Part shown: piece by piece, positions 6,991-59,922 of the stretch | Layout of the letters: every line of letters starts with the position of its first letter | Position numbering within the stretch: the stretch's first letter is position 1 | Assembly: GCA_020152595.1 (NCBI GenBank) | Contig: JAIGNY010002805.1 | Coordinates: 398,729 to 462,728 of the forward strand | Source of the DNA: Chiridota heheva | Lineage: Eukaryota; Echinodermata; Holothuroidea; Apodida; Chiridotidae | Length of the DNA stretch: 64,000 bases | Direction of reading: 5' to 3' | The notes under the pieces: generated by a model | Databases searched by the model: none | Told to the model about the DNA's origin: nothing | What the model saw: only the letters and a program-made list of their open reading frames with translations | Made by a program: the position numbers and the translations under genes

Positions 6991-7122
6991 AAGCCTATAA
7001 CAGTTATTGACTACCAAAACCTAGTCAAAGGGCAAGAGATCAAGAATTACTGCAGCTCAAGAAGGCAACGAATCTCGTTTTCCAGAGTTTAACAATCCCT
7101 TCTTCTGAACAAACTATACTTT

Positions 7123-8135
7123 GTGACACGTCAACAGCCAAACCACGACCATACATACCTTTGTCATTTGGACTTCAATTTTATTCTTTGCATGACTTAT
7201 CGTCTCATCCAGGCATACGAGCAACTCAGCGACTCATCACGCAGTGTTTTGTGTGGCCCTCGATCAAAAAGGACATCAAGCAGTGGACACCAAATTGCAT
7301 GCATTGTCAATGTCATTCACAGACCCCATTAGGTACCTTTGCGATGCCTGATGCTAGATTTGACCATGTTCACATAGATCTCGTTGGACCATTACCGCCA
7401 TCAAATGGGTTTACTTATCTTCTTACTGGCATCGACCGCTTCACTCGTTGGCCAGTAGCTGTTCCTATATCTTCAATTACAGCAGAGACAGTAGCTAAAT
7501 CTTTTGTAACTCGTTGGATAGGCAATTTTGGTGTGCCATCAAATATTACCACAGACAGAGGCAGTCAATTCGAGTCCGCACTCTTCAAGCTCCTCTTTGC
7601 ATTACTGGGCTCACAACGTGGTATGAACAACTTCTTACCACCCTGCATCAAATGGATTAGTAAAGCGCTTCCATCGCCACCTTAAGTCTCCTTTCAAGGT
7701 TCAATCTGAACCTCATAGATGGACTGAATCATTACCCCTTATTCTTCTTGGAATTCGTTCCTTGTTAAGGAAAATTTGGGTTGTTCATCCACAGAGCTAG
7801 TCTATGGCACAACGTTACACTTACCTGGGGAACTTGTTTTTGCTGTTACTCCATCAAGCCATTTAGATCCCAGTGATTACATTGACCGTCTGCATCATCA
7901 CATGGCTGAGATTAAACCCAAGCCAGCAAGATCAAATACAAGAGTGACATACTTACACAAAGATCTTCTTACCTGCACACTTGTGTTATTCAGAGTAGGT
8001 GCGGTCAAGAAACCACTGCAACTTCCATATGATGAACCATTCCATGTCATTCATCGGGAGGACAACATTTTGTCCTAGATATCAAGGGGCAGCACAAAAC
8101 CGTCAGTATTGATAGGCTAAAGTCGGACACATAGA
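7123..8135 (+). pseudogene. Ty3/gypsy integrase remnant, several frameshifts
   Basis: The frame at 7161-7625 shows HPGIRATQRLI, then the zinc-binding CMHC, then the catalytic core with HIDLVGPLPP (first Asp) and TTDRGSQF (second Asp). The rest of the core lies in another frame from about 7627. There the position expected for the catalytic Glu (family motif V-E-R-F) is an AAG lysine codon at 7663-7665. The C-terminal part shifts frame again near 7767 (CSSTELVYGTTLHLPGEL) and near 8055, where a conserved VSIDRLK end block is readable. At least three frameshifts and the lost glutamate make it non-functional. It continues the RNase H remnant as one pol gene. Confidence 0.87.
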
Positions 8136-11572: not shown

Positions 11573-12197
11573 CCCTCATTATAACATCTCTAATATAAGA
11601 AACTAACAATCTCAAGCATTTTACCTATCAAATTTGCAACGTTCAATAACTAACCCAAATAAATACATGATGATTCAACCAAATTCACAAATTTGAAAGA
11701 TCAAAAAGTATGCAAAATGTCAAAGCACCCACTGGGTACTAAACATTTGTTTGACTTTTCTGAGGGCTAAATCACTTACCTTTTATCTGGCTTTCAGTCA
11801 CTGACAGATGACTCCTCGCCTTAAATGAACAAATGTTCCGTTTTGTTTTTGAACACAGAGTGAATACAATCAAATATATATTTTTGTGACCAAATCATGC
11901 TTGATGAGATACCAAGTCAAACGAATAACCTCTACGGCGGGCAATGCAAGTGTATCTTGATGCATTGAATAAGCTTCATTACCCCTTACCGTGTTTAAGG
12001 ACTGACTTGAAACATCTGTAACAAACATGAAGGTGAATTTTGTTAAACTAAGGAACGAGGAAGGGAAGATGGTTAGCCTACTATTGATGTTCCATGTAAG
12101 AGTCAAAGAGATAGCGAGAAATAATTACAAGAGTACTTGTACAAAAATTTAAAGAAATATATTAGAAGTCCGAGACATCTATCACAGGATGCAACCA
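11573..12197. other. Spacer with one weak microexon candidate
   Basis: Mostly AT-rich unique sequence. On the - strand, 11990-12015 is a 26-nt stretch bounded by an acceptor-like TTCATGTTTGTTACAG and a donor-like GTAAGG. Both splice signals match consensus well, but a 26-nt exon cannot be confirmed from sequence alone. Confidence 0.3.
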
Positions 12198-13432
12198 GAA
12201 CCAAAAGGCTTTGTGGTGGCGATGCTTTTTCTTACAAGCTGATTAATTTGCAAAATTTGTATTCACTGTCATGTCATTGTATATCATGAATTGTTCCATG
12301 ATATTTATTCATAAGCCAAACCCACCATGCAGATCAATAAAATTGTTGACATTAGCATTTGCACAATAATTAACAACATTATCATAGAAAGTATGATGCA
12401 AAAATAGTTGCTCATTTATTATATTTCAAGAATTTGTCAGTAAGCCCCACCTACTCATTAATATTCATGATATCACTACAACATTAGAACATATGTACAG
12501 ACCATGACCCATGTGTGTACGTGATATAGCAAGAATCTGATATATTGTTGTTCATGAGATACAGTATGGGGTTTACATCAATTAGCACTTTCACATTAAG
12601 CCACACACACCATGCATATTAATGACATCTGCTGATAACATAAGCATGTACACATCATGCCCAATATGATGCAAAATGGATATACAGTTGCTCATTTAAG
12701 ACTATTTCCTAATTTTCACTTTAAGCCCCCGCCCACTTATTAGTATGCATGATATAACCACTAAAAACAATAGGGCACATCTACAAACCATGGGCTATCT
12801 GTCTTACCACATATGAACTGAATCTCATGTACAGTTCTTGAGATACTGTGTTTACAAGCTCTTTTCAACAAAATCATGTGAAGCCCTGCCCATTATGTAC
12901 ATTAATGAAATTCAATGTTTTTACATCTTGAACATGTACACACCAGCTAACATCATAATTATCCTAAATATGAAACTAAACAGACATGCAGTTGTTAAAA
13001 TATAAACATTTAAAAATTGTACATTTAGCCACACTGACTCATTAATATGCATGACATTACTAGCAAAAACAATGGGGCACATCTACGGACAATGGGCTGT
13101 GTATCGAATATGACATGAATCCAGTTTACAGGTCTTGAGATACCATACAAGCTTTTTTTAGCAAAATTAGCCCCGCCCACTACGTATGTTAATACATTTC
13201 AACGTTTTGTACCATGAACATATACACACCAGCTAATATTATAATTACACCAAATATGAAACAAAATAGACAAGCGGTTGTAAAAAATATGAACATTTCA
13301 AGATTTTTACATTAAGCCCCACCTACTCATTAATATGCATGACATCACCATCAAAAACAATACGGCACATCTACGGTCCATGGGTTACCCGTGTACCACA
13401 TATAACATGAATCCATCGCATCGGAACCAAAA
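12198..13432. repeat. Dispersed 1.2-kb modular repeat family, copy 1
   Basis: This shares long blocks with 20759-21946, 26827-28230 and 47889-48932. It starts at GAACCAAAAGGCTTTGTG and ends with GCATCGGAACCAAAAA. Inside, two half-modules alternate with a full period near 300 bp: one reads GCCCAC-YATGCATATTAATGA, the other GCCTACTC-ATTAATATGCATGA. The cores ATGCATATTAAT and ATTAATATGCAT are reverse complements. No protein frame is present. The class of element is not recognised. Confidence 0.88.
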
Positions 13433-20149: not shown

Positions 20150-20758
20150 TGGATCAAATTTCAGTTCCAAAATTTTGCCAATAAAAAAGCAAACTCCTTG
20201 CTTTAAATTGGATACACCTTTTTTGTCATAATTTACCTGTAGAGAAACAAGAAATAAATAATAGTCATAAGGCTGCTGTGCACGTGTCAAAATTATAAAC
20301 ACAAGTAAGGCTGTAACACGTATCGTATCATACAGTGTATGTACAGGGTAAATACGTAACACAACTAATGATAGTTGCGTTAGTTAACACATGCAAACAC
20401 AGTGTCAGGGATGTGAGGACAAAAATTATTTTAAAATTATGAATATGTAGCACAAATTCTAACGTCTTCGGCAAATGGCATGGAGGGTGGGGGAGAGAGG
20501 GGGTCAATTTGATCATACCACGTGCTGGAAAATATATTTTCCAAACAACAAAAAAACTTAAAAGGCATTGGGGAGAAAATTGAATTCATGGAGATATTTG
20601 AACATCAAAACATGCAATTCTAACGAAAGCTATGAGCTGTTTTGTATAAATTATAATATGTGGGTCAATGTGTAATTCTAACTTTTTCTTGCCAATTACG
20701 GAAGTTCTATGAATGACCTCTTGGTGGGAACTTATATTTTGTCACCAACAAAAAAACA

Positions 20759-21946
20759 GAACCAAAAGGTTTTGTGCATCCGGTGCTTCTTTTTCATAAG
20801 CTGATTAGTTTGCAAAATTTGTATTTACTGTCATTTCATTAAATATTATAAAATATTTGTTCCACAATATTTATTAATAAACCACACCCACCATACAGAT
20901 CAATACAAATGTTGACAATATTAGCAATTTCCACAATAATTAACAACATCATCATACCAAGTATCATGCAAAAACGATTGTTCATTTATCCTATTGCAAG
21001 AATTTGTCAGTATAGCCCCACCTACTCATTTATATTCACTACCACAACATTAAAACATATGTACAGACCATGACCCATCTGTGTACCTGAAATAGCATAG
21101 ATTTAATGTATTGTTCATTGGGTACGGTATGGTGTTTACATCATTTAGCACTTTCACATTAGGCCATGCCCACCATGCATATTAATGACATCTGCTGATA
21201 ACATAAGCATGTGCACAATAACCAACAAAATGATCATGCCCAATAAGATGCAAAACGGACATTGCTCATTTATCACTTTTTTTTTTAAATGTTCATTTTA
21301 ATACCCTCCCACTTATTAATATGCATGGTATCACCACCACAAACAATATGGCACATGTACAGACCATGGGCTATAAGTGTATCAAATATGACATGAATCC
21401 TTCTCATTCATTCTTGAGATAACGTTTACAACCTCTTTTCAGCAAAATCATATTAAGCCCCGCCCACTATGCATACTAATGAAATTCAACATTTTTACAT
21501 CATGAACATGTACACATCAACTAACATCATAATTATCCCAAATATGAAACAAAACAGACATGTGGTTGTTAAAATATTAACATTTCAAGATTTTTACTTT
21601 AAGCCCCGCCTACTAATTAATATGCAAGATATCAACACCAAAAACAATAGCACAAATCTACAGATCATGGGCTATCGGTGTACCACATATGAACTGATTC
21701 CAATTAATAGTTCGTAAGATACTGCCTTTACAAGCTATTTTTAACAAAATCATGTTAAGCCCCGCCCACTATGCATATTAATAAATTTCAACGTTTTTAC
21801 ATCATGTACATGTACACACCAGCAAACATCATAATTATCCCAAATATACACACACATACATACACACACCCATACATACATACATACACACACACATGCC
21901 ATCATGACCGCACAGGTTCCTGATGCTATTGCATCGGACCCAAAAA
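20759..21946. repeat. Dispersed 1.2-kb modular repeat family, copy 2
   Basis: Starts GAACCAAAAGGTTTTGTGCA and ends GCATCGGACCCAAAAAA. Module cores occur near 20880, 21014, 21163, 21299, 21455, 21601 and 21759, alternating between the two octamer orientations. Near the end a (CA)n/(TACA)n tract (21845-21896) precedes a terminal palindrome, CCTGATGC-TATT-GCATCGG. This end structure recurs in copies 3 and 4. Confidence 0.88.
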
Positions 21947-26165: not shown

Positions 26166-26826
26166 ATAGTGTAGCTTATAACGGTAAAATTTCTTTAAAT
26201 AGGGCCTCTCTATATTGTGCGAGTCACCACAAATTTCAATACTGGGGCATCTTACTATTTGAACCCCTGCCATTGTAATGACAAAACTGACGTGTCCTCC
26301 CTGCAATTGGATAATCATGATCTAAATGAAAATCCTTCTGATTTCAAGACTTATGATATATAAATTTTCCATATTTTTGTAGATTTCAATATAAAAAAGT
26401 TCTATTTCACAATTCGCCCATCTAATTAGCATATTTCGGCTTTATTTGTAAAACATGACATATATTAATTACTATGTAATTACGATAAAGCAAAATAACA
26501 AAGCTACTAATTGTAACAATCTGGTTCAAATATTGTTATTTTGCTGTATATGCATTGTGTTTATTAGGCCCGATTACATTCGCAATAAAATGATCCAATT
26601 TGGAGACAGAAATAAGCTATTCTTTAGTGTGTACTTTGTATGTGGTACTTCTGTGAATATTTGAATTTTTAATTAACATATTTCAGTAAATTAACATAAG
26701 ATGGCTGTAATGTCATGAAGTGTGATGCTCAGAATATGGTCTCTTTAATATATAGAAATGATTATAACCAAAACACCTTTGATTTGAATTTGTTGTAGGT
26801 TATATTCTAATTCGACTAGCCTTAAT
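26166..26826. other. Spacer, nothing recognised
   Basis: AT-rich unique sequence. Confidence 0.45.
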
Positions 26827-27079
26827 GGACACATCTACAGACCTTTAGCTATCTGTGTACCAAATATGACATGAATCCAGTTTACCATTTTTAAACTGTA
26901 TTTACAAGCTCTTTTCAGCAAAATCATATTAAGCCCCGCCTATTATGCATATTAATGAAATTTAACATTTTACATCACGAACATGTACACACCAGCTAAC
27001 ATCATAATTACACCATATGAAACAAAATAGGGATGCGGTTGTTAAAATATGAACATTTCAAGATTTTACATTAAGCCCT
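26827..27079. repeat. Dispersed modular repeat family, copy 3 (first part)
   Basis: Matches the family from its ACATCTACAGACC block to TTTACATTAAGCCC. The family's 5' end is missing, and the match breaks at 27079 inside a GC-box module. Confidence 0.8.
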
Positions 27080-27474
27080 GCTGTAATGAGATAGAATTTT
27101 ATAATTAAATAAGAAGGTGACTTTCAGAGTTAGAAAGTCACCAAAGTTTATCTCGTCATTAAAATCGTTAATCAATTGAATCTTTAAATTTGTTTTGGCT
27201 GGGTCGTTGGGTTTTGATTAATGCCTTGAATGCCAGTGTGTAAGCCAGCGTAGCATTCAGGTACTAGTTTGTTTACCAGTGGCGCAAATAAAAGCAACCG
27301 ATGGATTTGAAGTTTCAGTTGTATCATAGCAGTTACTTAATACGTGATCTTTGGGCAACTTGGTCTGAATTGCTCATCGCAACATTGGAATTAAATATCG
27401 TTAACCGTCTGGACATTCTCTTTGTCGTTTCTTTTATCGTACTTGTGATCTCCGCTTCATCTCGCTAAACCTCC
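27080..27474. other. Unrelated segment within copy 3, possible solo LTR
   Basis: A roughly 395-bp segment, not of the family, separates the two parts of copy 3. It begins TGTAATGAGATAG and has an AATAAA near 27286. It contains a 10-bp perfect stem, GGTGACTTTC (27116-27125) against GAAAGTCACC (27133-27142), with a 7-nt loop. About 70 bp of the family consensus is missing at the breakpoint and no target duplication is evident, so it is not a clean insertion. Confidence 0.35.
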
Positions 27475-28230
27475 ATCAGTATCTGTGTACCAAATATGCC
27501 ACGAATCCAGTTTACCATTCCTGAGATACTGTGTTTATAAGCTCTTTTCAGCAAAATCATATTAAGCCCGCCTACTATGCATATTAATGAAAGTCAATGT
27601 TTTTATATCATGAACATGTACACACCAGCTAACATCATAATTATACCATATGAAACAAACAAGACATGTGGTTGTTAAAATATGAATATTTCAAGATTTT
27701 TACATTAAGCCCCGCCTACTAATTAATATGCATGACATTATATAAAAGGGCACATCTATAAACCATGGGCTATCTGTGTACCTAATATGAGATGAATCCA
27801 TGCAGGGTATACCATTCTTCAGATATCGTGTTTACAAGCTATTTTCAGTAAAATCATATTAAGCCCTGCCCATTATGCATATTAATTGAAATTCAATGTT
27901 TTTAACATCATGATCATGTACACACCAGCTAACATCATAATTATACCAAATATGGAACAAAACCGACAATGCAGTTGTTAAAATATGAACATTTAAAGAT
28001 TTTACATTAAGCCCCGCCTACTCATTAATATGCATAACATCACCATAAAAAAAAAAATAGGGCACATCTACGGACCATGTGCTATCTGTGTACCAATATG
28101 ACCCAAATCCAGTGTATCATTCTCGAGATACTGTGTTTACGAGCTGGCCTTCACATACATATATACACACATACACACACACGATATCATGACCACATAC
28201 GTTCCTGATGCTATCGCATCAGAACCAAAA
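27475..28230. repeat. Dispersed modular repeat family, copy 3 (second part)
   Basis: Resumes at TATCTGTGTACCAAATATG and continues through several GC-box and octamer modules to the (CA)n tract (28154-28184). It ends with the terminal palindrome CCTGATGC-TATC-GCATCAG and then AACCAAAAA. Confidence 0.86.
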
Positions 28231-28324: not shown

Positions 28325-29139
28325 TTAGCTAAAACATGCAACAAATAACAGGAAGTAATCTTCTCAACTCAAGCGTGGTCAAACCAAGATTATCGCAACC
28401 TAGATTCATATGAGAAGATTTCGTATTCGGGAATAAGTCTCATTAGTGGCTCTTTGCTGAACCTGCTCCAAAATGAACTTATTTTCTTATAAAATGGACT
28501 CCAACCCTGAATAGCATACTCAAGGTGAGGCCTGACTAACTGCTTTTACAAATTAAGAACAACCTCTCTACCAAGAAAACAAAAATTTCTTCTAATCAAA
28601 CCAAGCATCCTATTTGCCATTGCAGTTGCTAAAGCACACTGTTTAGAAGGCTCAGATTGCTAGTAATAACAACACATAGATCCCTTTCTTGATCAACACA
28701 ACCAAGATTTGAATCATTTATGCAGTAATCAAAAGCCAAATTGTTCTGACCAAAATGAATAACTTTGCATTTTTCAACATTGAATGACATCAACCATGTT
28801 TGGGACCAAGCAACTAATTATCCAGATCAGTTTGCAAAAGTGAAGAATCCCTAGCATCATCAACAATCCTGTACAGCTTAGTGTCATCAGCAAATTTACA
28901 AATCCTGGAGCCAAGGGAAAATCAATATCATAAATGAAGATTAAGAAAAGAAGGGGACCCAATACAGAACCCTGAGGAACACCACTTGTAACCTTCTTCC
29001 ACAGAGATACTTCACCATTAACAAGAACTCTTTGTGACCTGTCATCTAACCGAGAATATATCCAACTGGCACACTTTCCCTCCACACCAAGTGCTCTTGT
29101 TTTCATCATGAGCCTGCCCAATGAAACCTTATCAAATGC
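28325..29139 (-). pseudogene. CR1/jockey-type LINE reverse transcriptase remnant
   Basis: Read from 29139 down, the frame opens at [10 protein letters not shown] (RT motif A region), then [13 protein letters not shown], then [14 protein letters not shown], the hallmark RT motif B. A frameshift follows. The catalytic FADD box is read in the next frame at 28894-28883, followed after another shift by [10 protein letters not shown] and then degraded C-terminal blocks (RPHLEYAIQGWSPFY). The copy is truncated at motif A, as expected from incomplete reverse transcription, and carries several stops. Clade placement (CR1/jockey superfamily) is by motif style. Confidence 0.85.
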
Positions 29140-29230
29140 AGCCTACTGCACAACACAGAGTCTGGCAAGGCCTGCATGACAGACTAGCCTACCTAGTTAC
29201 AGCCTACTGCACTACACAGAACCTGGCAAG
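29140..29230. repeat. Short direct duplication between two LINEs
   Basis: CAGCCTACTGCAC and a following CTGGCAAGG block occur at about 29140-29170 and again at 29199-29231. They lie between the end of the - strand LINE and the start of the + strand L1-like element, perhaps a scar of insertion. Confidence 0.6.
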
Positions 29231-29752: not shown

Positions 29753-32700
29753 TGGTTGTCCCTGATGCAGTCTTACTGCTATCACCTAATGGGTATGATT
29801 TCATGTTGTCCCTAATGAAGTCTTACTGCTATCACCTAATGGGTATGTTTTTATGTTGTCCCTGATGCAGTCTTACTGCTATCACCTAATGGGTATAAGT
29901 TCATGAATCCCTAATGCAGTCCACTGCTATCACCTAATGGGTATGATTTCATGTTGTCCCTGATGCAGTCTTACTTCTATCACCTAATTTAATTTCATGT
30001 TATCCCTGCTGCAGTCTAACTGCTATCACCTAACAGGTATAATTTCATGTTATCCCTTTCTAACATATCACCTAATCAGGTATAATTTCATGTTATTTGC
30101 AGTCTAACTGCTATCACCTAACAGGTATAATTTCATGTTATCCCTGCTGCAGTCTTTTGCTATCACCTAATGGTATAATTTCATGTTAATGCAGTCTGAC
30201 TGCTATCACCTAATAGGTATAATTTCATGTTATCCCTGATGCAGTCTTACTGCTATCACCTAATAGGTGTAATTTCATGTTATCCCTGATGCAGTCTTAC
30301 TGCTATCACTTAACAGGTATAATTTCATGTTGTCCCTGCTGCAGTCTAACTGCTATCACCTAACAGGTATAATTTCATGTTATCCCTGCTGCAGTCTAAC
30401 TGCTATCACCCAACAGGTATAATTTCATGTTATCCCTGCTGCAGTCTAACTGCTATCACCTAATAGGTAAAATTTCATGTTATCCCTGATGCAGTCTAAC
30501 TGCTATCACCTAACAGGTATAATTTCATGTTATCCCTGCTGCAGTCTAACTGCTATCACCTAATAGGTATAATTTCATGTTATCCCTGATGCAGTCTAAC
30601 TGCTATCACCTAATGGGTATGATTTCATGTTGTCCCTGCTGCAGTCTAACTGCTATCACCTAATAGGTATAATTTCATGTTATCCCTGATGCAGTCTAAC
30701 TGCTATCACCTAACAGGTATAATTTCATGTTGTCCCTGATGCAGTCTTACTGCTATCACCTAATAGGTATAATTTCATGTTATCCCTGCTGCAGTCTAAC
30801 TGCTATCACCTAATGGGTATGATTTCATGTTATCCCTGCTGCAGTCTAACTGCTATCACCTAATAGGTATAATTTCATGTTATCCCTAATGCAGTATAAC
30901 TGCTATCAACTAACAGGTATAATTTCATGTTGTCCCTGCTGCAGTCTAACTGCTATCACCTAACAGGTATAATTTCATGTTATCCCTGCTGCAGTCTAAC
31001 TGCTATCACCTAATAGGTATAATTTCATGTTATCCCTGCTGCAGTCTAACTGCTATCACCTAATGGGTATGATTTCATGTTGTCCCTGCTGCAGTCTTAC
31101 TGCTATCACCTAATGGGTATGATTTCATGTTATCCCTGATGCAGTCTAACTGCTATCACCTAACAGGTATAATTTCATGTTATCCCTGATGCAGTCTTAC
31201 TGCTATCACCTAATAGGTATAATTTCATGTTATCCCTGCTGCAGTCTTACTGCTATCACCTAACGGGTATGATTTCATGTTATCCCTGCTGCAGTCTAAC
31301 TGCTATCACCTAATAGGTATAATTTCATGTTATCCCTGCTGCAGTCTAACTGCTATCACCTAACAGGTATAATTTCATGTTATCCCTGCTGCAGTCTAAC
31401 TGCTATCACCTAACAGGTATAATTTCATGTTATCCCTGATGCAGTCTTACTACTATCACCTAATAGGTATAATTTCATGTTATCCCTGCTGCAGTCTAAT
31501 TGCTATCACCTAATAGGTATAATTTCATGTTATCCCTGATGCAGTCTAACTGCTATCACCTAATGGGTATGAGTTCATGTTGTCCCTAATGCAGTCTTAC
31601 TGCTATCACCTAATGGGTATGATTTCATGTTGTCCCTAATGCAGTCTTACTGCTATCACCTAATGGGTATGATTTCATGTTGTCCCTAATGCAGTCTTAC
31701 TGCTATCACCTAATGGGTATGATTTCATGTTGTCCCTAATGCAGTCTTACTCCTATTACCTAATGGGTATGATTTCATGTTGTCCCTAATGCAGTCTTAC
31801 TGCTATCACCTAATGGGTATGATTTCATGTTGTCCCTAATGCAGTCTTAATGCTATCACCTATGGGTATGATTTCATGTTGTCCCTAATGCAGTCTTACT
31901 GCTATCACCTAATGGGTATGATTTCATGTTGTCCCTAATGCAGTCTTACTGCTATCACCTAATGGGTATGATTTCATGTTGTCCCTAATGCAGTCTTACT
32001 GCTATCACCTAATGGGTATGATTTCATGTTGTCCCTGCTGCAGTCTAACTGCTATCACCTAATGGGTATGATTTCATGTTGTCCCTAATGCAGTCTTAAT
32101 GCTATCACCTATGGGTATGATTTCATGTTGTCCCTGCTGCAGTCTAACTGCTATCACCTAATGGGTATGATTTCATGTTGTCCCTAATGCAGTCTTACTG
32201 CTATCACCTAATGGGTATGATTTCATGTTGTCCCTAATGCAGTCTTAATGCTATCACCTATGGGTATGATTTCATGTTGTCCCTAATGCAGTCTTACTGC
32301 TATCACCTAATGGGTATGAGTTCATGTTGTCCCTAATGCAGTCTTACTGCTATCACCTAATGGGTATGATTTCATGTTGTCCCTAATGCAGTCTTAATGC
32401 TATCACCTAATGGGTATGATTTCATGTTGTCCCTAATGCAGTCTTAATGCTATCACCTAATGGGTATGATTTCATGTTGTCCCTAATGCAGTCTTACTGC
32501 TATCACCTAATGGGTATGAGTTCATGTTGTCCCTAATGCAATCTTACTGCTATCACCTAATGGGTATGATTTCATGTTGTCCCTAATGCAGTCTTACTGC
32601 TATCACCTAATGGGTATGATTTCATGTTGTCCCTAATGCAGTCTTACTGCTATCACCTAATGGGTATGATTTCATGTTGTCCCTAATGCAGTCTTAATGC

Positions 32701-34345
32701 TATCACCTATGGGTATGATTTCATGTTGTCCCTAATGCAGTCTTACTGCTATCACCTAATGGGTATGATTTCATGTTGTCCCTAATGCAGTCTTAATGCT
32801 ATCACCTAATGGGTATGATTTCATGTTGTCCCTAATGCAGTCTTAATGCTATCACCTATGGGTATGATTTCATGTTGTCCCTAATGCAGTCTTACTGCTA
32901 TCACCTAATGGGTATGAGTTCATGTTGTCCCTAATGCAATCTTACTGCTATCACCTAATGGGTATGATTTCATGTTGTCCCTAATGCAGTCTTAATGCTA
33001 TCACCTAATGGGTATGATTTCATGTTGTCCCTAATGCAGTCTTACTGCTATCACCTAATGGGTATGAGTTCATGTTGTCCCTAATGCAATCTTACTGCTA
33101 TCACCTAATGGGTATGATTTCATGTTGTCCCTAATGCAGTCTTAATGCTATCACCTAATGGGTATGATTTCATGTTGTCCCTAATGCAGTCTAACTGCTA
33201 TCACCTAATGGGTATGATTTCATGTTGTCCCTAATGCAGTCTTACTGCTATCACCTAATGGGTATGATTTCATGTTGTCCCTAATGCAGTCTTACTGCTA
33301 TCACCTAATGGGTATGATTTCATGTTGTCCCTAATGCAGTCTTACTGCTATCACCTAATGGGTATGATTTCATGTTGTCCCTAATGCAGTCTTAATGCTA
33401 TCACCTATGGGTATGATTTCATGTTGTCCCTAATGCAGTCTTACTGCTATCACCTAATGGGTATGAGTTCATGTTATCCCTGCTGCAGTCTTACTGTTAT
33501 CACCTAATGGGTATGAGTTCATGTTGTTCCTGATGCAGTCTTACTGCTATCACCTATGGGTATGATTTCATGTTGTCCCTAATGCAGTCTTACTGCTATC
33601 ACCTAATGGGTATGATTTCATGTTGTCCCTAATGCAGTCTTACTGCTATCACCTAATGGGTATGATTTCATGTTGTCCCTAATGCAGTCTTACTGCTATC
33701 ACCTAATGGGTATGAGTTCATGTTATCCCTGCTGCAGTCTTACTGCTATCACCTAATGGGTATGAGTTCATGTTGTTCCTGATGCAGTCTTAATGCTATC
33801 ACCTATGGGTATGATTTCATGTTGTCCCTAATGCAGTCTTACTGCTATCACCTAATGGGTATGAGTTCATGTTATCCCTGCTGCAGTCTTACTGCTATCA
33901 CCTAATGGGTATGAGTTCATGTTGTCCCTGATGCAGTCTTACTGCTATCACCTAATGGGTATGAGTTCATGTTGTCCCTAATGCAGTCTTACTGCTATCA
34001 CCTAATGGGTATGAGTTCATGTTGTTCCTGATGCAGTCTTAATGCTATCACCTATGGGTATGATTTCATGTTGTCCCTAATGCAGTCTTACTGCTATCAC
34101 CTAATGGGTATGAGTTCATGTTATCCCTGCTGCAGTCTTACTGCTATCACCTAATGGGTATGAGTTCATGTTGTTCCTGATGCAGTCTTACTGCTATCAC
34201 CTATGGGTATGATTTCATGTTGTTCCTGATGCAGTCTTACTGCTATCACCTAATGGGTATGATTTCATGTTGTCCCTAATGCAGTCTAACTGCTATCACC
34301 TAATGGGTATGATTTCATGTTGTCCCTAATGCAGTGTTATTGCTC
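29753..34345. repeat. 50-bp minisatellite, about 92 copies
   Basis: The unit joins TGCAGTCTTACTGCTATCAC, CTAATGGGTATGATTTCATG and TTGTCCCTAA. Two subfamilies exist. From about 30000 to 31540 most units read ACAGGTATAATTTC with TTATCCCTGCTG. From about 31550 on they read ATGGGTATGATTTC with TTGTCCCTAATG. A 49-bp variant (CACCTATGGGTATG) recurs in the right half, usually after CTTAATGC. The array lies exactly between ORF1 and ORF2 of one L1-like element. Confidence 0.97.
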
Positions 34346-34383
34346 TGCATCTTCATGTATATGTTGATTCCTCTCCCTCTCTA

Positions 34384-34890
34384 TGAGTAGCCTAAAGTTT
34401 TGTTCTTTTAACATCCGAGGTATGCGGGACAACAAAAAAAGAAGATAAATATTTGCATATTTTCACAAGCAATATTATGATTTCATATTTTAGCAGGAAA
34501 CGCATTCTACTCCCTTCAATGATCATTTCTGGTCCAATGAATGGGGTGGTAGTTTATTTCTCGCCCATGGTACAAACCTTAGTAGGGTCTTGCTAATTTG
34601 GTAAAACCATCAGTCACCTTTTCCCTAAACAACATTATCAAGCATAATGATGGTTATTTTATCTTTCTTGTTATTACAGTGAACGGATTGCATCTTGTGT
34701 TAGTCAATATTTATGGTCCAAATCGTGATAATTACTTCATCTGTTTCTGACCATATTTCTAGTACTGTTAATATTTGGGATTTCATCATTTGGGGAGGGG
34801 ACTTCAATTTTGTAATGAACTTAGCTTTGGATAATAAGGGGGGGCTTGCCACATACCAATTCTTATGTTCGATCTTCTGTAATCTATTTT
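34384..34890 (+). pseudogene. L1-like ORF2: APE-type endonuclease remnant
   Basis: The translation shows FCSFNIRGMRDNKKR (the N-terminal N of apurinic-type endonucleases), then QETHSTPFNDHFWSNEWGG (QE-H block with the metal-binding Glu). After frameshifts come NIYGPN and IIWGGDFNFVMN (the GGDFN catalytic block). This order is the L1/Tx1-type endonuclease, which nicks target DNA to prime reverse transcription. Stops occur between the blocks, so it is inactive. It begins 40 bp after the 50-bp array. Confidence 0.85.
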
Positions 34891-35930
34891 ATGCAACTTT
34901 TTGACCTAATTGATATCTGGCATTAGCGCAACCTGAAAAGCCATCTTTATTTGTGGCATTCTAACATAGATAACTTTATTCATTGTAGGTTAGATTTTTT
35001 ATCATATTACGTCATTTAAGGAACTTGGTTACTGATTCTAGTATGTCCTATTTTTGGCTCTGGTCATTCCAGTATTTCTTTATCTTTATCCATAGGCAGT
35101 AAAAGGGGTAAGGGGATCTGGAAAATTAAATACTTCCTTGCTTCAAGGTAATACTTAATGTTGACCTTATAAAAAACACAGTGAATAACACTGTGTTATC
35201 TAATCAGAACCTTAATCCTGCATCACTTTGGGAATTATGTAAACTGAATATCAGAACATATTTGATAGCGTATTCCTAGTCTAAGGCTAAGCATCATAAT
35301 CATCAGGAACGTAAGTTAATTGAAAAATTTCAGCCTTAGAACAATTAATAGTTATAACCCCTTTTGTTGAAATTCAGACTCGGTTAAATGACGCCAGAAA
35401 TCCATAAGAACTGTTTTACGAACATAAACTTAAAGGTATGATAAATAGATCCAGGGCAAGGTGGCTGCAAGAGGGGGATACAAATACTCACCACTTTTTA
35501 AATCTAGAAAAGAGGAATAAAGAGTTTAATACAATTTAAGGAGCTCATTTTTGATAATAATGTTACTATTTTTAATCCCGAGGATATCTTGAATGAGGCA
35601 AATTTCTTTTATAAAAATCTCTGCACTGAAAATCATAATGTTTCTTTTGACATTTTTTGTAATAACTTGAATGTTGATCATATTAAGTTAGCTGATGTGC
35701 AGAAAGATTCATGTGATAGCCTTTTAACTTTTAATGAGTGTAAGAACTTTTTGTTCTATATGTCCGTCAATAAGTCCCCTGGCTCTGACGACCTCCCTAC
35801 TAAATTCTATAAAATGTTTTGGAACGATATTGGTGATCTCATTGTTAATTCTTTTAATTATGCATTTCATTCAGGCCAGATATCTGATGAACAGGGCAGG
35901 GAGTGTATAACTATGATTCCAAAACATTCA
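34891..35930 (+). pseudogene. L1-like ORF2: linker and first RT segment
   Basis: The linker is degraded, with recognisable pieces such as ASLWELCKLNIRTYLIAYS. An open frame from 35589 then carries FYKNLCTENHNV and NECKNFLFYMSVNKSPGSDD, followed by LPTKFYKMFWNDIGDLIVNS and ECITMIPKHSK. These are the conserved L1 blocks that begin the RT fingers (KSPGxDGLPxEFYK and ITLIPK). The frame enters the 18-bp array without interruption at 35931. Confidence 0.9.
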
Positions 35931-38900
35931 AAATACCCTAGGTATATTAAATACCCTGGGTATATTAAATACCCTAGGTATATTGAATACCTAGGTTTAT
36001 CAAATACCCTAGGTATATCAAATGCCCTAGGTATATTAAATACCCTAGGTATATTAAATACCTTAGGTATATTAAATACCCTATGTATATTAAATACCCT
36101 AGGTATATTGAATACCCTAGGTTTATCAAATACCCTAGGTATATCAAATACCCTAGGTATATTAAATACCTTAGGTATATTAAATACCCTATGTATATTA
36201 AATACCTAGGTATATTGAATACCTAGGTTTATCAAATACCTAGGTATATCAAAATACCTAGGTATATTAAATACCCTAGGTATATTGAATGCCCTAGGTT
36301 TATCAAATGCCCTAGGTATATTAAATACCCTAGGTATATTGAATACCCTAGGTATATTGAATACCCTAGGTATATCAAATACCCTAGGTATATCAAATAC
36401 CCTAGGTATATTAAATACCTAGGTATATTGAATACCCTAGGTTTATCAAATACCCTAGGTATATTAAATACCCTAGGTATATTGAATACCCTAGGTATAT
36501 CAAATACCTAGGTATATCAAATACCCTAGGTATATTAAATACCCTATGTATATTAAATACCCTAGGTATATTGAATACCCTAGGTTTATCAAATACCCTA
36601 GGTATATCAAATACCCTAGGTATATTAAATACCCTATGTATATTAAATACCCTAGGTTTATTGAATACCCTATGTATATTAAATACCTAGGTATATTGAA
36701 TGCCTAGGTTTATCAAATACCCTAGGTATATTAAATACCTAGGTATATTGAATACCTAGGTATATCAAATACCCTAGGTATATCAAATGCCCTAGGTATA
36801 TTAAATACCCTAGGTATATTGAATACCCTAGGTTTATCAAATACCCTAGGTATATTAAATACCTAGGTATATTGAATACCCTAGGTATATCAAATACCCT
36901 AGGTATATCAAATACCCTAGGTATATTAAATACCCTATGTATATTAAATACCCTAGGTATATTGAATACCCTAGGTTTATCAAATACCCTAGGTATATCA
37001 AATACCTAGGTATATTAAATACCCAGGTATATTAAATACCCTAGGTATATTGAATACCCTAGGTTTATCAAATACCCTAGGTATATCAAATACCCTAGGT
37101 ATATTAAATACCCTATGTATATTAAATACCCTAGGTATATTGAATACCTAGGTTTATCAAATACCTAGGTATATCAAATACCCTAGGTATATTAAATACC
37201 CTATGTATATTAAATACCCTATGTTTATCAAATACCCTAGGTATATTAAATACCCTAGGTATATTGAATACCTAGGTTTATCAAATACCCTAGGTATATT
37301 GAATACCCTAGGTATATTGAATACCTAGGTATATTGAATACCCTAGGTATATTAAATACCCTAGGTTTATCAAATACCCTAGGTATATTGAATACCCTAG
37401 GTATATTGAATACCCTAGGTTTATCAAATACCTAGGTATATTAAATACCCTAGGTATATCAAATACCTAGGTTTATCAAATACCCTATGTATATTAAATA
37501 CCCTAGGTATATTGAATACCCTAGGTTTATCAAATACCCTAGGTATATTAAATAGCCCTAGGTATATTGAATACCCTAGGTATATCAAATACCCTAGGTA
37601 TATCAAATACCCTAGGTATATTGAATACCCTAGGTATATTGAATACCCTAGGTATATTGAATACCCTAGGTATATTAAATACCCTAGGTTTATCAAATAC
37701 CCTAGGTATATTGAATACCTAGGTATATTGAATACCCTAGGTTTATCAAATACCCTATGTATATTAAATACCTAGGTATATTGAATACCCTAGGTATATC
37801 AAATACCCTAGGTTTATCAAATACCTAGGTATATTGAATACCCTAGGTATATTGAATACCCTAGGTATATTGAATACCTAGGTATATTAAATACCCTAGG
37901 TTTATCAAATACCTAGGTATATTGAATACCCTAGGTATATTGAATACCCTAGGTTTATCAAATACCTAGGTATATTAAATACCCTAGGTATATCAAATAC
38001 CCTAGGTTTATCAAATACCCTATGTATATTAAATACCCTAGGTATATTGAATACCCTAGGTTTATCAAATACCCTAGGTATATTAAATACCCTAGGTATA
38101 TTGAATACCCTAGGTATATCAAATACCTAGGTATATCAAATACCCTAGGTATATTAAATACCCTATGTATATTAAATACCCTAGGTATTTGAATACCCTA
38201 GGTTTATCAAATACCCTAGGTATATCAAATACCCTAGGTATATTAAATACCCTAGGTATATTGAATACCCTAGGTTTATCAAATACCCTAGGTATATTAA
38301 ATACCCTATGTATATTAAATACCTTAGGTATATTGAATACCCTAGGTTTATCAAATACCCTAGGTATATCAAATACCCTAGGTATATTAAATACCCTAGG
38401 TATATTGAATACCCTAGGTTTATCAAATACCCTAGGTATATCAAATACCCTAGGTATATTAAATACCCTAGGTATATTGAATACCCTAGGTTTATCAAAT
38501 ACCTAGGTATATCAAATACCCTAGGTATATCAAATACCCTAGGTATATTAAATACCTAGGTATATTGAATGCCTAGGTTTATCAAATACCCTAGGTATAT
38601 TGAATACCCTAGGTATATTGAATACCCTAGGTATATTGAATACCCTAGGTATATTGAATACCCTAGGTTTATCAAATACCTAGGTATATCAAATACCCTA
38701 GGTATATTAAATACCCTAGGTATATTGAATACCCTAGGTTTATCAAATACCCTAGGTATATCAAATACCCTAGGTATATTAAATACCCTAGGTATATTGA
38801 ATACCCTAGGTTTATCAAATACCTAGGTATATTAAATACCTAGGTATATTGAATACCTAGGTATATCAAATACCCTAGGTATATCAAATACCCTAGGTAT

Positions 38901-39885
38901 ATTAAATGCCCTATGTATATTAAATACCTAGGTATATTGAATACCTAGGTTTATCAAATACCCTAGGTATATCAAATACCTAGGTATATTAAATACCCTA
39001 GGTATATTGAATACCTAGGTTTATCAAATACCCTAGGTATATTAAATACCCTAGGTATATTGAATACCCTAGGTATATTGAATACCTAGGTATATCAAAT
39101 ACCCTAGGTTTATCAAATACCCTAGGTATATTAAATACCCTAGGTATATTGAATACCCTAGGTATATTAAATACCCTAGGTATATCAAATACCCTATGTA
39201 TATTAAATACCCTAGGTATATTGAATACCCTAGGTATATCAAATACCCTAGGTATATCAAATACCCTAGGTATATTAAATACCTTAGGTATATTAAATAC
39301 CCTATGTATATTAAATACCTAGGTATATTAAATACCCTAGGTATATTGAATACCTAGGTTTATCAAATACCCTAGGTATATCAAATACCCTAGGTATATT
39401 AAATACCCTAGGTATATTAAATACCTTAGGTATATTAAATACCCTATGTATATTAAATGCCTAGGTATATTAAATACCTTTGGGTATATTAAATACCCTA
39501 TGTATATTAAATACCTAGGTATATTAAATACCCTAGGTATATTAAATACCCTAGGTATATTGAATACCTAGGTTTATCAAATACCTAGGTATATCAAATA
39601 CCCTAGGTATATTAAATACCCTAGGTATATTAAATACCTTAGGTATATTAAATACCCTATGTATATTAAATACCCTAGGTATATTAAATACCCTAGGTAT
39701 ATTAAATACCCTAGGTATATTAAATACCCTAGGTATATTGAATACCTAGGTTTATCAAATACCCTAGGTATATCAAATACCCTAGGTATATTAAATACCC
39801 TAGGTATATTAAATACCTTAGGTATATTAAATACCCTATGTATATTAAATACCCTAGGTATATTAAATACCCTAGGTATATTAAA
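35931..39885. repeat. 18-bp minisatellite, about 220 copies, within L1 ORF2
   Basis: The unit AAATACCCTAGGTATATT encodes KYPRYI in the ORF2 frame. The array sits between MIPKHSK and the codons for KNWR, exactly where L1 elements have a short K-x-P-x-Y-I-K-N-W-R segment, so the unit is the element's own sequence expanded in place. Variants include TTGAATAC, TATCAAAT, TTTATCAAA and CCTATGTATA, and they recur in a fixed order, giving higher-order repeats of several units. Many units lack one C (17 bp), which makes TACCTAGGTA a perfect palindrome. Confidence 0.97.
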
Positions 39886-40037
39886 AACTGGAGACAATTG
39901 CTCTATTAGATGTAGATTGTAAGATCGCATCAAAAGCCATAGCCTCTAGATTAAACTATGTACTTCCCGATATAATAAGTAATGACCAAACTGGGGATCA
40001 AACCGGCTTTGTTAAAGGTCGTTCTATAGAGGGATTT
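39886..40037 (+). pseudogene. L1-like ORF2: RT segment after the 18-bp array
   Basis: The sequence resumes with codons for KNWR, and after one frameshift reads ALLDVDCKIASKAIASRLN and then GFVKGRSIE. These are consecutive L1 RT blocks (NWRPISLLNTDYKI, then QTGFVKGR). A 12-bp duplication repeats QTG. It continues the pre-array segment with little or nothing missing, supporting expansion rather than replacement. It ends at an insertion near 40038. Confidence 0.88.
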
Positions 40038-40600
40038 CACAACATGACTCTTAACTCATCTGGAAGCCATTTTGCAGGGCAAGCATCGTTGCGTTTCACG
40101 CGTCATTACACAGCTCAGTCACATCACACGTACAATGCATGCTAAACCTACCTACCAGTTCAGCGAATTTTACTGTATACATTTTTTTTTTAGCTTCCAA
40201 ATTTACTTCATATTTTCCTTACGTTTTTTATATTCATACGAAGAGTAAGTTTTACAATAATGCTATCTGATTGTTTGTTATACGCAGACAAAGCATACAT
40301 AACTGATATAAAGTGCTCAGTGCAAATCCTAGTGTGAAGTGTAGGTTGAAAGCCGTTGCGTAACACAGATTTGATTTGATTTGATTGATTAATTTCCACA
40401 CTAATCATGAGAATTTAACATCAAAGCTGTACATTCAGATAAAAAGATGATTGGTGGAGGTCTGAACGAGCTGTTGCTCTTACACAGCAGACCCCTTGTA
40501 CAAAGAAACAAATTAAGAAAATTAGATAATGAAACTAATATATACAGAAAAAATACATATGAAACAAACAATGATAATACCCCTACCCCAATGGTAAAAA
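40038..40600. mobile_element. Unidentified 0.56-kb insertion in L1 ORF2
   Basis: RT homology stops after GRSIE and resumes near 40601 at DLISYCNDNS. The intervening sequence has no RT similarity. It contains (TTTGA)n-like TTTGATTTGATTTGATTGA (40370-40388) and an inverted pair GGTCTG / CAGACC (40458 and 40488). It could be a SINE or small DNA element. I find no clear target duplication. Confidence 0.45.
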
Positions 40601-41201
40601 CATTTGACTTATTTGTGATCTTATTTCCTATTGTAATGATAATTCTGTCCCAGGTACTCTGCCTTTACTAGACTTCGAGAAGGCTTTTGATTTTTTAGAT
40701 TGGTCTTTTATCAAACAAACTCTTTCATACTTTAACTTTGGTTTTTTGTTTATTCAATGGATTTCGGTCTTTTATAGTAACGCATCCTCGTGTATCATTA
40801 ATAATGGCTTCCTATCCAAGTATTTCAATGTTTCAAGAGACTTTCGTCAGGGATGTCTCTCAGCCCTTACTTATTCATCATCTCTACTGACATTCTAAAT
40901 ATGTTGATTAATTCTAATGTATTATTTATTGTAATTATATTTATAATGATTATATTTATAATGATTATATTAAAGTCTCCTAATATGCAGATGACACTGT
41001 TCATGATGTACTTAACCATTTTAGGAATTTTTTTCTATTTGTAACGGTCAACTTACGTATTTGGGCATTTCTTTCACACACTATCACGATGACTTCTAAC
41101 TATGTCCCAAAGCTGGCGAGAATTAAAAATATGTTGCAAACAAGGTCTACTCATGACCTAACCCCTATCAACAAACTTCAAATTCTAAAATCTTCTGCTA
41201 T
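40601..41201 (+). pseudogene. L1-like ORF2: RT palm with YADD
   Basis: The translation gives LPLLDFEKAFDFLDWSFIK (RT motif A, catalytic Asp), FIQWISVFYSNASSCIINNG and a shifted RQGC / LSPYLFIISTDILNMLI (motif B), then YADDTV at 40984-40999 (the catalytic box). Further on it reads NYVPKLARIKNMLQ and LTPINKLQILKSSAISQLVY, the thumb blocks. Sequence between motif B and YADD, and between YADD and the thumb, is shorter than in intact L1, so internal deletions occurred. Stops and frameshifts make it inactive. Confidence 0.9.
40920..40977. repeat. Short 18-bp duplication inside the L1 RT
   Basis: TTATAATGATTATATTTA is repeated about 2.5 times, in frame, between the motif B region and YADD. It may be an early-stage expansion of the same kind as the larger arrays in this element. 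Confidence 0.7.
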
Positions 41202-41379
41202 TTCTCAATTGGTTTACTTTCTAACGATTCTTCTCAATTGGTTTACCTTCTAACGATTCTTCTCAATTGGTTTACCTTCTAACGGTTCTTCTCAATTGGT
41301 TTACCTTCTAACGGTTCTTCTCAATTGGTTTACCTTCTAACGGTTCTTCTCAATTAGTTTACCTTCTAACGGTTCTTCC
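41202..41379. repeat. 29-bp minisatellite, about 6 copies, within L1 ORF2
   Basis: TTCTCAATTGGTTTACCTTC plus TAACGGTTC recurs at 41202, 41231, 41260 and on. One unit encodes the end of SQLVYFLT, and the sequence resumes after the array with LPNPPTNFFNN. L1 elements have precisely this thumb segment (S-x-L-x-x-L-x-x-x-LPNPP), so this array too is a tandem expansion of native LINE sequence. At 29 bp it changes frame each copy. Confidence 0.93.
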
Positions 41380-42470
41380 CAACCCTCCCACCAACTTTTT
41401 TAATAATTTAAATTTTTTTTTCTTTTTTTTTGCTTTCATTTGAAACAAAAAGCCAGATAAGGTTAAAAGAACTGTTTTGTGCAATAACAAATGTGATAGA
41501 GGCCTTCGTATGATTGATTTATTCAGTTTTTCCCAAAGTTTAAAATGTAAGTGGGTGAAGGTGTATTTAAATGACGATTATAGATCATGGATATTGCTTT
41601 TTGACTATGAATTAAATAGATATGGTTCAAAATCCTTTTCAGCTGTAATTTTGCTAAGCATGATCTTGATGTTTCAAATCTTTTTATTCTTCATGTTTGC
41701 CAAGCATGGTCTAGTTATTCATTCATTATCCATGTAATAATAATTATGCTACTCAGTGTGTCCTTAGTAATTCTTACATTAAAATCGGTAACAAGTTATT
41801 GTTTAGTAAGCTCATGCTAAATGCAACTGTTTATTTTGTAAAAGACTTTTTCAATGATGCAAATTGTCCTCACCATTATAATTCTTTTACTAACAATCAT
41901 ATCTTGCGGAACTTTCCGTTTACAGTTTTCTTTAGTATTATAAATGCTATCCCGACCATTTGAAAAAATAATCTTCACCCAATTCATATGTGTAATGACG
42001 ACACTCAACGTTTACTTCAATTTTCAGCTTCTTTGCATACTACTAAACATGTTTATCAGTCTTTAATGAGTAAAAGTGTATCAATTCTAACAGCACTTGG
42101 GAGCAGCACATTGATTGCCCAGTTGACTGGAAGATCATTGTTAAACTACCGTTCATTTCTGAAGACATACTAAGATTCATTATTTTCAATTTCGATTTTT
42201 ACATAGAATCATAGGTAGAAATACATTTTGGTTTAAAATTGACTTCATTGTGTGACTCCCCACATTGTACATTTTGTAATATGGAGGATAAAACTTTGGC
42301 ACATTTAATTTGGTCATGTCCGAACATGTCTATGAATCTTTGTATTAAGCCAAATTTAAATATCAGCCAACTGATTGTTTTCTTTGGTTACTGTGGCATA
42401 AGATATACCAGCCCAAATGACAGTTTTTCTGCTCCATGCAAAATACTATATTTTGTAATGTAAAATGAAC
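41380..42470 (+). pseudogene. L1-like ORF2: C-terminal region and Cys tail
   Basis: Blocks in order are PNPPTNFFNNLN, KPDKVKRTVLCNNKCDRGLR, MIDLFSFSQSLKCKWVKVYL, NDDYRSWILLFDYELNRYG and, after a shift, the connecting region near 41760-41960. At 42239-42330 comes CDSPHCTFCNMEDKTLAHLI followed by WSCP, the Cys-rich C-terminal motif (CxxC-x-HLxWxCP) of L1-type ORF2. Several frameshifts and stops are present. Confidence 0.88.
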
Positions 42471-47757: not shown

Positions 47758-47888
47758 ATACAAAGATAGCGCATTTATGCTTACCAGAAACATAGAGGTG
47801 TATACCATTGGGCTCTTTGGCTACATCACTTCACATCCAACATTTATCTTATAGATTTGGGAGATGATGAGATGAAAGAGAGAAACCA

Positions 47889-48932
47889 GAGCCAAAAAAT
47901 TGTTGTGCTTCCGATGCTTCTTTTTTATTAGCTGATTGATTCACAAAATTTGTATTTACTGTTATGTCATTGCATATCATGAAATATTTGCTTCACGATA
48001 TGTATTCATAAACCACACCCACCATGCAGATCAATAAAAATGTTGACAACATTAGCATTTGCACAACAATTAACAACATTACCATACCAAGTATCATACA
48101 AAAACGGCTGCTCATTTATCCCATGGCAAGAATTTGTCAGTGAGCCCCACCTAGTCATTTATCTTCATGAAATTGCTACCATAACATTATACAGACCATA
48201 ACCCATCTGTGTACCTGATATAGCATAAATCTGATGCATCATTTATGGGGTACTGTATGGTGTTTACATCATGTAGCACTTTCACATTAAGCCACACCCA
48301 CCATGCATATTAATGATATCTGTTGATAAGATAAGCATGTACACAATAACCAACAAACTTATATTGCCCAACCAATATGATGCAAAATGGACATATACTG
48401 TTGATCATTTATCACTTTTTCAAAATGTTCATTTTAAGCCAGCCTACTTATTAATGTGCATGATATCACCACCCCAAAACAATAGAGCACATGCACAGAC
48501 CATAGGCTATCAGTGTACCATGAATACAGTATATGCAGTTTACTGTTCTCAAGATCCAGTGTTTACAATCTCTTTTCAGCAAAATCATATTACGCCCCGC
48601 CTACTATGCATATTAATGAAATTCAATGTACACACCAGCTAACATCATAATAATCCCAAATATGAAACAAAACAGACATCAGGTTGTAAAATATGAAGAT
48701 TTCAAGATTAAGCCCCGCCTACTTATTAATATGCATGATATCACCACCAAATATAATAGAGCACATCTACAGACCATAGGCAATATGTGTTCCAAATATG
48801 ATACAAATCAAACATACATACATACATACACACATACATACAAACATACACCCACACACACCCACACACACACATATATACACATGCTATCATGACCGCA
48901 TAGGTTCCTGATGATGCTATCTCATCAGAACC
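47889..48932. repeat. Dispersed 1.2-kb modular repeat family, copy 4
   Basis: Starts GAGCCAAAAAATTGTTGTGC and ends with CTCATCAGAACCCAACAG. It holds the same alternating GC-box and octamer modules (for example near 48298, 48434, 48595 and 48713), then an (ACAT)n/(CA)n tract (48815-48880) and a broken terminal palindrome with a duplicated GATGAT. Confidence 0.87.
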
Positions 48933-57232: not shown

Positions 57233-58021
57233 TGTGCATATAACCTTTGATATAAAATGTTTATGGTTGTGTAGTTACCACATAACCAACCATATTCTCT
57301 AAAGAAACAGTAAAATCCCTAAATTAAAAAAAAAAAAACATTTTTCTTCTTAACCAACAAAGTGTCAACTAATTTTTATGAATAATTTCTATCTCTTAAT
57401 TCTCAGGAAATGAAGAATATGACATGTGGAATATACTGACTTCAAATGCATGACATCAATGTAGACTCTTGGCAGACAAACTTCTCCATTCAATGTAAAC
57501 AAGGCACTTGAATTATCGATAAACATTTTCAGATTTCAATCATTCAAATATGAAATAATACTCTAAAGTATCAATGTGTGCATCTAAGAGAAAGAGATGT
57601 TATAATTCAAAGGAATGTACCTTGTAAATACATCAAAATGGACCTCAACCAAACGCATTATTTATGGGCTGCATCACTACCTCCACACTCACTCCTAAAT
57701 ACTGACATAAGCACGTTAACATCAAGGGGAAGTATTTAAGCATATAAGGAATTGTTTCTCAAATCTTTGTTAAGAAATGAGCCTATTTGCAAATTATCAT
57801 TGTTACAAGAATTGAACAGATCTATAGAAAGGACACCTAATCCTAAGTAATAATCCAAAAGGGTTTTATTTTTGATACTTTTAAACCAATCACTTTTAAA
57901 AGAAATTTATGCTGGACAATAACAAACTTTTTTGCTTTTATTTCCAATTAGATAATTTTGAGCAAAACCTTCGTTACAAACACACCTTAGAACGAAGCCT
58001 GAAAAAAGTGAATATTGCTGT
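57233..58021. other. Spacer, nothing recognised
   Basis: Unique AT-rich sequence with an A-run near 57326. Confidence 0.45.
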
Positions 58022-58470
58022 GGACCATTTGGAGGAGCTCGTTCGTTTGTTAAATGGATAACTGTGGACCATTAGGAGTTCGTTGGTTAAATGGAGAACT
58101 GTGGACCATTAGGAGGAGTTGGTTAAATGGATAACTGTGGACCATTAGGAGGAGTTGGTTGGTTAAATGGAGAACTGTGGACCATTAGGAGGAGTTGGTT
58201 GGTTAAATGGAAAACTGTGGACCATTAGGAGGAGTTGGTTGGTTAAATGGAGAACTGTGGACCATTAGGAGGAGTTGGTTAAATGGAGAACTGTGGACCA
58301 TTAGGAGGAGTTGGTTGGTTAAATAGAGAACTGTGGACCATTAGGAGAAGTTGGTTGGTTAAATGGATAACTGTGGACCATTAGAAGTTCGTTGGTTAAA
58401 TGGAGAACTGTGGACCATTAGGAGTTCTTTGGTTAAATAGAGAACTGTGGACCATTAGGAGTTCATTGTT
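58022..58470. repeat. 36/40-bp minisatellite, left part
   Basis: AGAACTGTGGACCATTAGGA plus GGAGTTGGTTGGTTAAATGG recurs. 36-bp units lack one GGTT, and GGAGTTCGTTGG units are shorter. About 11 copies precede a LINE insertion, and the array continues at 59790. Confidence 0.95.
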
Positions 58471-59789: not shown

Positions 59790-59922
59790 AGTGAGAACTG
59801 TGGACCATTAGGAGTTTGTTGGTTAAATGGAGAACTGTGGACCATTAGGAGGAGTTGGTTGGTTAATGGAGAACTGTGGACCATTAGGAGTTCGTTGGTT
59901 AAATGGAGAACTGCAGTAAGGA
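59790..59922. repeat. 36/40-bp minisatellite, right part
   Basis: Three more units with GAGAACTGTGGACCATTAGG follow directly after the LINE, so the LINE interrupts one array. Confidence 0.93.

Follow-up and report, generated by a model that had tools for sequence, protein, structure and literature searches.

A minisatellite probably born in place from the reverse-transcriptase codons of a dead L1-like LINE copy

A minisatellite of 222 short units interrupts ORF2 of a decayed LINE in the sea cucumber Chiridota heheva. We put at roughly 90% the probability that it was born in place, by expansion of 18 bp of native reverse-transcriptase (RT) codons in one dead L1-like LINE copy. This reading follows from the gapless fit of the two flanks, from the better score of one unit than of any other number tested, and from the segments that related LINEs carry at the same site. 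On this account the unit derives from transposable element (TE) sequence at its own position, and the array is a TE-derived tandem repeat. A second array in the same ORF2 appears to have arisen in the same way.

The array was located by TRF at positions 35931-39885 of the window (the whole stretch of 64,000 nt that was analysed), with period 18, 222.2 copies and the consensus AAATACCCTAGGTATATT, which encodes KYPRYI. Because the last AAA is the K of the flanking KNWR, the units proper stop at 39882, and 35931-39882 (+ strand) splits into 222 units, 174 of 18 bp, 46 of 17 bp and 2 of 19 bp (the final unit is 21 bp if its trailing AAA is counted in). With up to two mismatches, the consensus matches 153 times in the window, always on the + strand and always within the array, against a mean of 0.00 in 100 shuffles; elsewhere in the 64,000 nt the unit does not occur at this threshold. 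Head-to-tail units in the range of about 10-100 bp and an array of kilobase size make this a minisatellite. The initial annotation had described a roughly 4-kb array inside an L1-like ORF2, "KYPRYI x ~220". The array is real, has all its units on one strand and is set in a decayed ORF2, and the copy number holds, but the formula overstates its uniformity, since 92 of the 222 units, each read in its own frame, encode exactly KYPRYI. In searches outside the window, the exact 18-bp unit turned up in four stretches of viral contigs, with one match each, which we take as chance, and a 23-base word from the array (up to two mismatches) was absent from all four genomes that carry the LINE relatives described below. 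Rfam and tRNA scans found nothing.

The host element can be followed in pieces on the + strand from 34368 to 42328 by tblastn with related LINE proteins, through an ORF2 decayed by stops and frameshifts and split by other DNA. Its left part (34383-35930; tblastn 34368-35951, with an ATG at 34383) spans the endonuclease and the start of the RT, itself contains frameshifts and stops, and ends in ...ECITMIPKHS at the array. The Exo_endo_phos match in this part (E 0.00083, for a peptide with X at stops) lies below the Pfam cut-off, and the stretch 35511-35948 by itself gives no Pfam match. Beyond the array, the segment 39883-40028 resumes the RT with KNWR, a frame change and ALLDVDCKIASKAIASRL...FVKGRS, as placed by alignment to human L1 ORF2p and by tblastn (39897-40028); its RVT_1 match (E 0.0056) is below the Pfam cut-off, and it holds an in-frame 12-bp duplication at 39984-40007, giving two copies (DQTG DQTG) where relatives have one. 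About 564 bp of other DNA (40029-40592) then splits the RT domain, flanked by what correspond in tblastn to residues 590 and 591 of the protein of relative L008. Further RT sequence (LLDFEKAFD...) follows at 40593-40918 (tblastn; RVT_1 E 0.019, below the Pfam cut-off), then a 15-bp x 3.3 array at 40923-40971 (TRF), the second expansion discussed below, and the C-terminal part at 41383-42328 (tblastn pieces 41348-41718 and 42083-42328). Upstream of ORF2, whose probable start is 34383, a 50-bp x 92.5 array (29755-34344, + strand; TRF) stops 38 bp short of that position and separates ORF2 from an ORF1-like region. That region, before 29755, resembles ORF1 in motif order only, by motifs that we take to be those of ORF1, and it gave no Pfam match and no significant tblastn match; the element holding the 50-bp array is probably the same LINE. 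Directly before the ORF1-like region lies a fragment of another RT, on the minus strand at 28774-29142 (RVT_1 E 2.3e-8, above the Pfam cut-off).

Is the unit native RT sequence? In translation, the left flank, one unit and the right flank read ...ECITMIPKHS, KYPRYI and KNWR, the flanking peptides being those reported in the initial annotation. Joined in this way, they match five distinct PDB sequences of human L1 ORF2p at E 1.8e-6 to 7.8e-6 and align without gaps, as four displayed alignments show, while the left flank by itself reaches L1 in PDB only at E 0.28-0.91. This bears out the proposal that a single conserved RT segment continues from one flank to the other. Among the best PDB matches, the RT is nearer to L1 ORF2p, at those E values, than to R2 proteins (0.021 and 0.029). 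The endonuclease domain precedes the RT (tblastn from 34368; the sub-threshold Exo_endo_phos match), and, judged on these sequence features, the host element is a dead copy of an L1-like non-LTR retrotransposon.

Related LINEs with which to compare the site came from contigs of bacterial assemblies, three labelled as Bathymodiolus mussel gill symbionts and two from other MAGs, all of which we infer to be animal DNA. Six stretches of genome contigs, and none of viral contigs, matched a degenerate DNA pattern that describes a conserved LINE motif; five of the six read as LINE RT, and the sixth, L007 (Microbulbifer), which does not, was dropped. In the four genomes to which these contigs belong, 21 matches had an E value of 0.01 or less. 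When loci L005-L031 were then aligned by tblastn, with an E limit of 1e-3 and a single alignment kept for each locus, 18 were reported, while L007, L019 and L025-L031 fell short of the limit. All of the 18 except L024 span the site of the array, and these 17 loci represent 11 distinct proteins; L009 and L014 are one element, and L013 and L020, which have equal scores, probably represent a single element shared by two mussel species. Other searches yielded no further relatives: viral contigs searched with the window's LINE peptides gave 2 + 20 pattern matches and genome contigs searched with the joined-flank query gave 202, none of them confirmed, and phages and plasmids gave no match by tblastn.

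One unit between the flanks scores above zero, two, three or four units in all 11 distinct related proteins. For L011, the scores for zero to four units are 202, 223, 207, 201 and 195. The margin is slim in the most distant relatives, L017 (113, 117, 115, 115 and 115) and L023 (137, 140, 134, 128 and 122). At 14 of the 17 loci the alignment is gapless at the site, and the other three (L009, L014 and L023) have one residue fewer. The segments found there are KDRQYI, KDRRFI, KDRRYM, KSRHFL, KPRHFL, RKRRYI, KDRTRL and GDKCDL, along with two that are one residue shorter. The unit is of this type, as had been claimed on the basis of the residues expected at this point; the residue after K, however, is mostly D, S or P in the relatives and Y in the unit. 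Sibling copies lacking the segment would have told against a native origin, and in the other LINE families where we looked the segment is present at all 17 loci and in all 11 proteins. The single-copy ancestor is thus reconstructed from other LINE families, at 34-48% protein identity.

How much weight can the six residues carry by themselves? Random stop-free hexamers from the window equal the KYPRYI score with a frequency of 0.004 against eight templates, 0.007 against nine and 0.012 against all 11, the rise from 0.004 to 0.012 coming with the addition of L017, L014 and L023. Of 24 stop-free registers on the two strands of the unit, only the flank-dictated KYPRYI scores above zero (53; next -6) against seven relatives, excluding those same three, and human L1. 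Given these frequencies and the register test, the six residues alone are only moderate evidence of native origin. What argues strongly for it is that one unit fits both junctions at once, in spacing as in register.

The second array lies in the same ORF2, upstream of LPNPP, at 41202-41382 (+ strand; TRF), and consists of 6.2 copies of a 29-bp unit (codons ISQLVYFLT|ILPNPP). One unit with its flanks reads AISQLVYLLTVLPNPPTNFF, which is gapless here against ALSKLVHLLTALPNLTQSRL of L011, and one unit is best in all nine relatives tested, which represent seven distinct elements (nine of the 12 mapped relatives' proteins were used, L014, L016 and L017 being left out). The L011 scores for zero to four units are 145, 205, 166, 166 and 166. 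Unit-number scoring thus points to a second in-place expansion of ORF2 codons, and since 29 is not a multiple of three, frame-keeping plays no role in it.

If a ready-made 18-bp satellite had inserted into the LINE, its likeness to the native codons would be a coincidence. The window is certainly rich in arrays, with 33 tandem-repeat blocks of period at least 10 covering 22,787 of its 64,000 bases (35.6%), and the chance of an equal hexamer match, 0.4-1.2%, is not vanishing. An inserted array, however, should still have the native residues next to it. What is seen is that one unit makes up exactly the missing segment, with both flanks in register. Moreover, the 29-bp array likewise reduces to a native single unit, and the 18-bp unit forms no other array in the window. 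We therefore regard an inserted satellite as very improbable, and the best score of one unit in 11 of 11 distinct relatives agrees with the initial annotation that this is an expansion of native sequence.

Somewhat less remote, though still improbable, is the idea that the array is a family trait of a mobile LINE, carried to this locus by retrotransposition rather than grown after insertion. Some LINEs do have internal tandem repeats, Xenopus Tx1 being an example, and this lends the idea some substance. A multi-kilobase array in the RT core, however, should destroy RT function, and the 29-bp array of the same ORF2 breaks the frame. In addition, TRF was run on 13 sequences of relatives, a set in which some contigs are represented twice, and found no array at the site; two of the 13, L037 and L010, have arrays elsewhere. 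Growth of the 18-bp array at its present location is the reading that we retain.

The array could also be imagined as a coding tandem repeat held open by selection, given that a unit of 18 bp keeps the frame and that the listed 18-bp variants are free of stops from their first base. The claim that unit length preserves the frame does not survive a unit-by-unit reading, however: 46 of the 222 units are of 17 bp, the LINE frame is already lost at unit 4 (17 bp, starting at 35985), and the flanks MIPK and KNWR are out of phase by 1. Read on from the LINE, the array runs into many stops, and the remaining ORF2 is itself frameshifted and interrupted. Selection for an open frame is accordingly a very poor candidate, and we continue with expansion in a dead element.

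The 17-bp units raise a separate question of detail, namely whether they are real. In 44 of the 46, the change is the identical C deletion, CCC to CC before TAGG. Of the 194 units left when the TATG and CTTAGG types are set aside, 46 are of this length, as against none of the 21 TATG units (Fisher p 0.009). We considered that they might be inherited sub-types and found no support for this, because the 17-bp state is common to duplicated blocks at 111 of 174 sites, which is chance level (permutation mean 110.8, sd 6.5). The same lack of concordance, together with the confinement of 44 of 46 cases to one deletion in a single context, is what sequencing or consensus errors would produce, in which case the true array would be in frame; the CCC run of a 36-bp array in the window is also variable (4 of 21 copies). 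Against error, 32 of 37 other homopolymer runs in the window's arrays have no altered copy (for example CCC 0/45, GGG 0/53 and CC 0/68), the remaining altered runs being 2/17, 2/50, 1/20 and 1/8, and the absence of 17-bp forms among TATG units fits a hairpin-templated correction of a quasi-palindrome. The C deletion does turn the quasi-palindrome ACCCTAGGT into the perfect palindrome ACCTAGGT, and quasipalindrome template switching is a known process. Folds of three units have -8.0 kcal/mol for the 18-bp form, -11.5 for the 17-bp form and -2.9 for the TATG variant, with z-scores against shuffles of -1.55, -3.25 and -1.22, so that the 18-bp form folds only modestly better than its shuffles. The 17-bp units reflect either very frequent hairpin-templated correction or else a sequence-specific error, and we give the error reading something short of even odds.

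How might the arrays have begun and grown? The native segment starts with AAATAC, and 18 bp further on AAAAAC, encoding the K-N of KNWR, is alike at five of six bases. Similarly, TTCTCAA and TTCCCAA stand 29 bp apart at the second array and agree at six of seven bases. In both arrays the second word, which is like the beginning of the unit, follows directly on the last unit. Such likeness is equalled by 1.3% (AAATAC/AAAAAC) and 0.28% (TTCTCAA/TTCCCAA) of window words, and the identity could be partly that of a trailing partial unit. The first duplication would have come about by slippage between AAATAC and AAAAAC, and that of the 29-bp array by slippage between TTCTCAA and TTCCCAA; we infer that the most likely mechanism is slippage, in an element already dead, from one short imperfect direct repeat to the other. 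The near-palindromic unit can fold into hairpins, which may stall the polymerase and favour slippage. After that the array, not bound by coding constraint, would have grown as blocks of several units were duplicated. In the 18-bp array, 17 pairs of blocks share at least eight units of identical types, against a mean of 0.185 and a maximum of 3 in 200 shuffles of unit order, and 11 such pairs extend over 10-19 units, against a mean of 0.01. The first 10 units, for instance, recur starting at unit 202 and again at unit 212. Block pairs so far above the shuffles indicate that substitutions were copied along with the blocks. As this LINE copy carries several breaks, it is simplest to suppose that the array grew after the copy had died.

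With 33 blocks over more than a third of the window, the array probably reflects a property of the genome rather than of the LINE, although the arrays in two of 13 relatives' sequences count against this, even with none at the site. Several other repeats share the window. A similar unit of 37-40 bp occurs on both sides (58018-58461 and 59793-59913) of a LINE-like fragment whose RNase H match, on the minus strand, has E 1.5e-5 and narrowly misses the Pfam cut-off, as if the fragment had inserted into an array of that unit. An internally repetitive dispersed repeat of about 1 kb is found at 12193-13421, 20753-21843, 26824-28145 and 47883-48809, followed at two places (21844 and 48812) by an AC/ACAT microsatellite; in build it is reminiscent of bivalve mobile elements that have a tandem core. 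At 6263-8078 lie the remnants of a retrotransposon, with an RNase H and an integrase domain, which we take to be Ty3/gypsy-like.

How minisatellites originate is difficult to investigate, since the single-copy sequence from which they grew seldom survives. For two arrays of this element, homology to related proteins restores that ancestor almost codon by codon. Where a genome is rich in arrays, its LINE copies could therefore serve to measure the sites, the frequency and the seeds of array birth. A bolder proposal, which we hold only tentatively and think rather unlikely as a whole, is that short direct repeats give rise to minisatellites in this genome at a very high rate, and that the 18-bp array undergoes recurrent hairpin-templated one-base deletions that outpace block duplication. 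If such a rate were real, dead LINEs would be calibrated recorders of minisatellite birth.

The general process is already known, but two cases in one copy, and an ancestor resolved so well, are unusual. In the open-licence PMC literature we found no paper describing an array of comparable kind in LINE RT codons, and a peptide-based literature query returned none. In the parts of the sources on which we draw, the closest parallel is human: Ahmed and Liang (2012; PMC3389668) count 7,276 human minisatellites and satellites (23%) as TE-derived, with postulated mechanisms explaining the start of only 6% of the TE-derived minisatellites, and a majority of the 6,817 unexplained cases having two units. 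As here, the repeats began and grew inside individual TE copies; unlike the cases described there, the present unit lies in LINE RT codons and has reached 222 copies, and two arrays can be reduced to a native unit. The same source cites Haber and Louis (1998) and Taylor and Breden (2000) for minisatellite birth by slippage at short direct or noncontiguous repeats. A birth of the Haber-Louis type would have direct repeats of 5-10 bp around the seed; our seeds have candidate short repeats at their edges that recall those models as cited, but they are imperfect, at five of six and six of seven bases. Satellites derived from LINE ORF2 include PROsat of Phodopus, Pvc 20 of seal and HinfI of chicken CR1, as summarized in PMC9659126, and they share with our array a tandem monomer containing LINE ORF2 sequence; those are described as satellite DNAs, whereas the 18-bp unit is found at one locus, inside its parent element. 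The initial annotation saw here a route from retrotransposon to satellite, but a satellite family would have arrays at several loci, and in the window the unit has this array only. Finally, Lathyrus satellites have been traced to tandem repeats of the Ogre retrotransposon (PMC7004042). Like the array described here, the Ogre arrays are short arrays embedded in an element, but in that account they come after the gag-pol coding region and are seen in many reads, whereas the C. heheva array occupies coding sequence in one copy.
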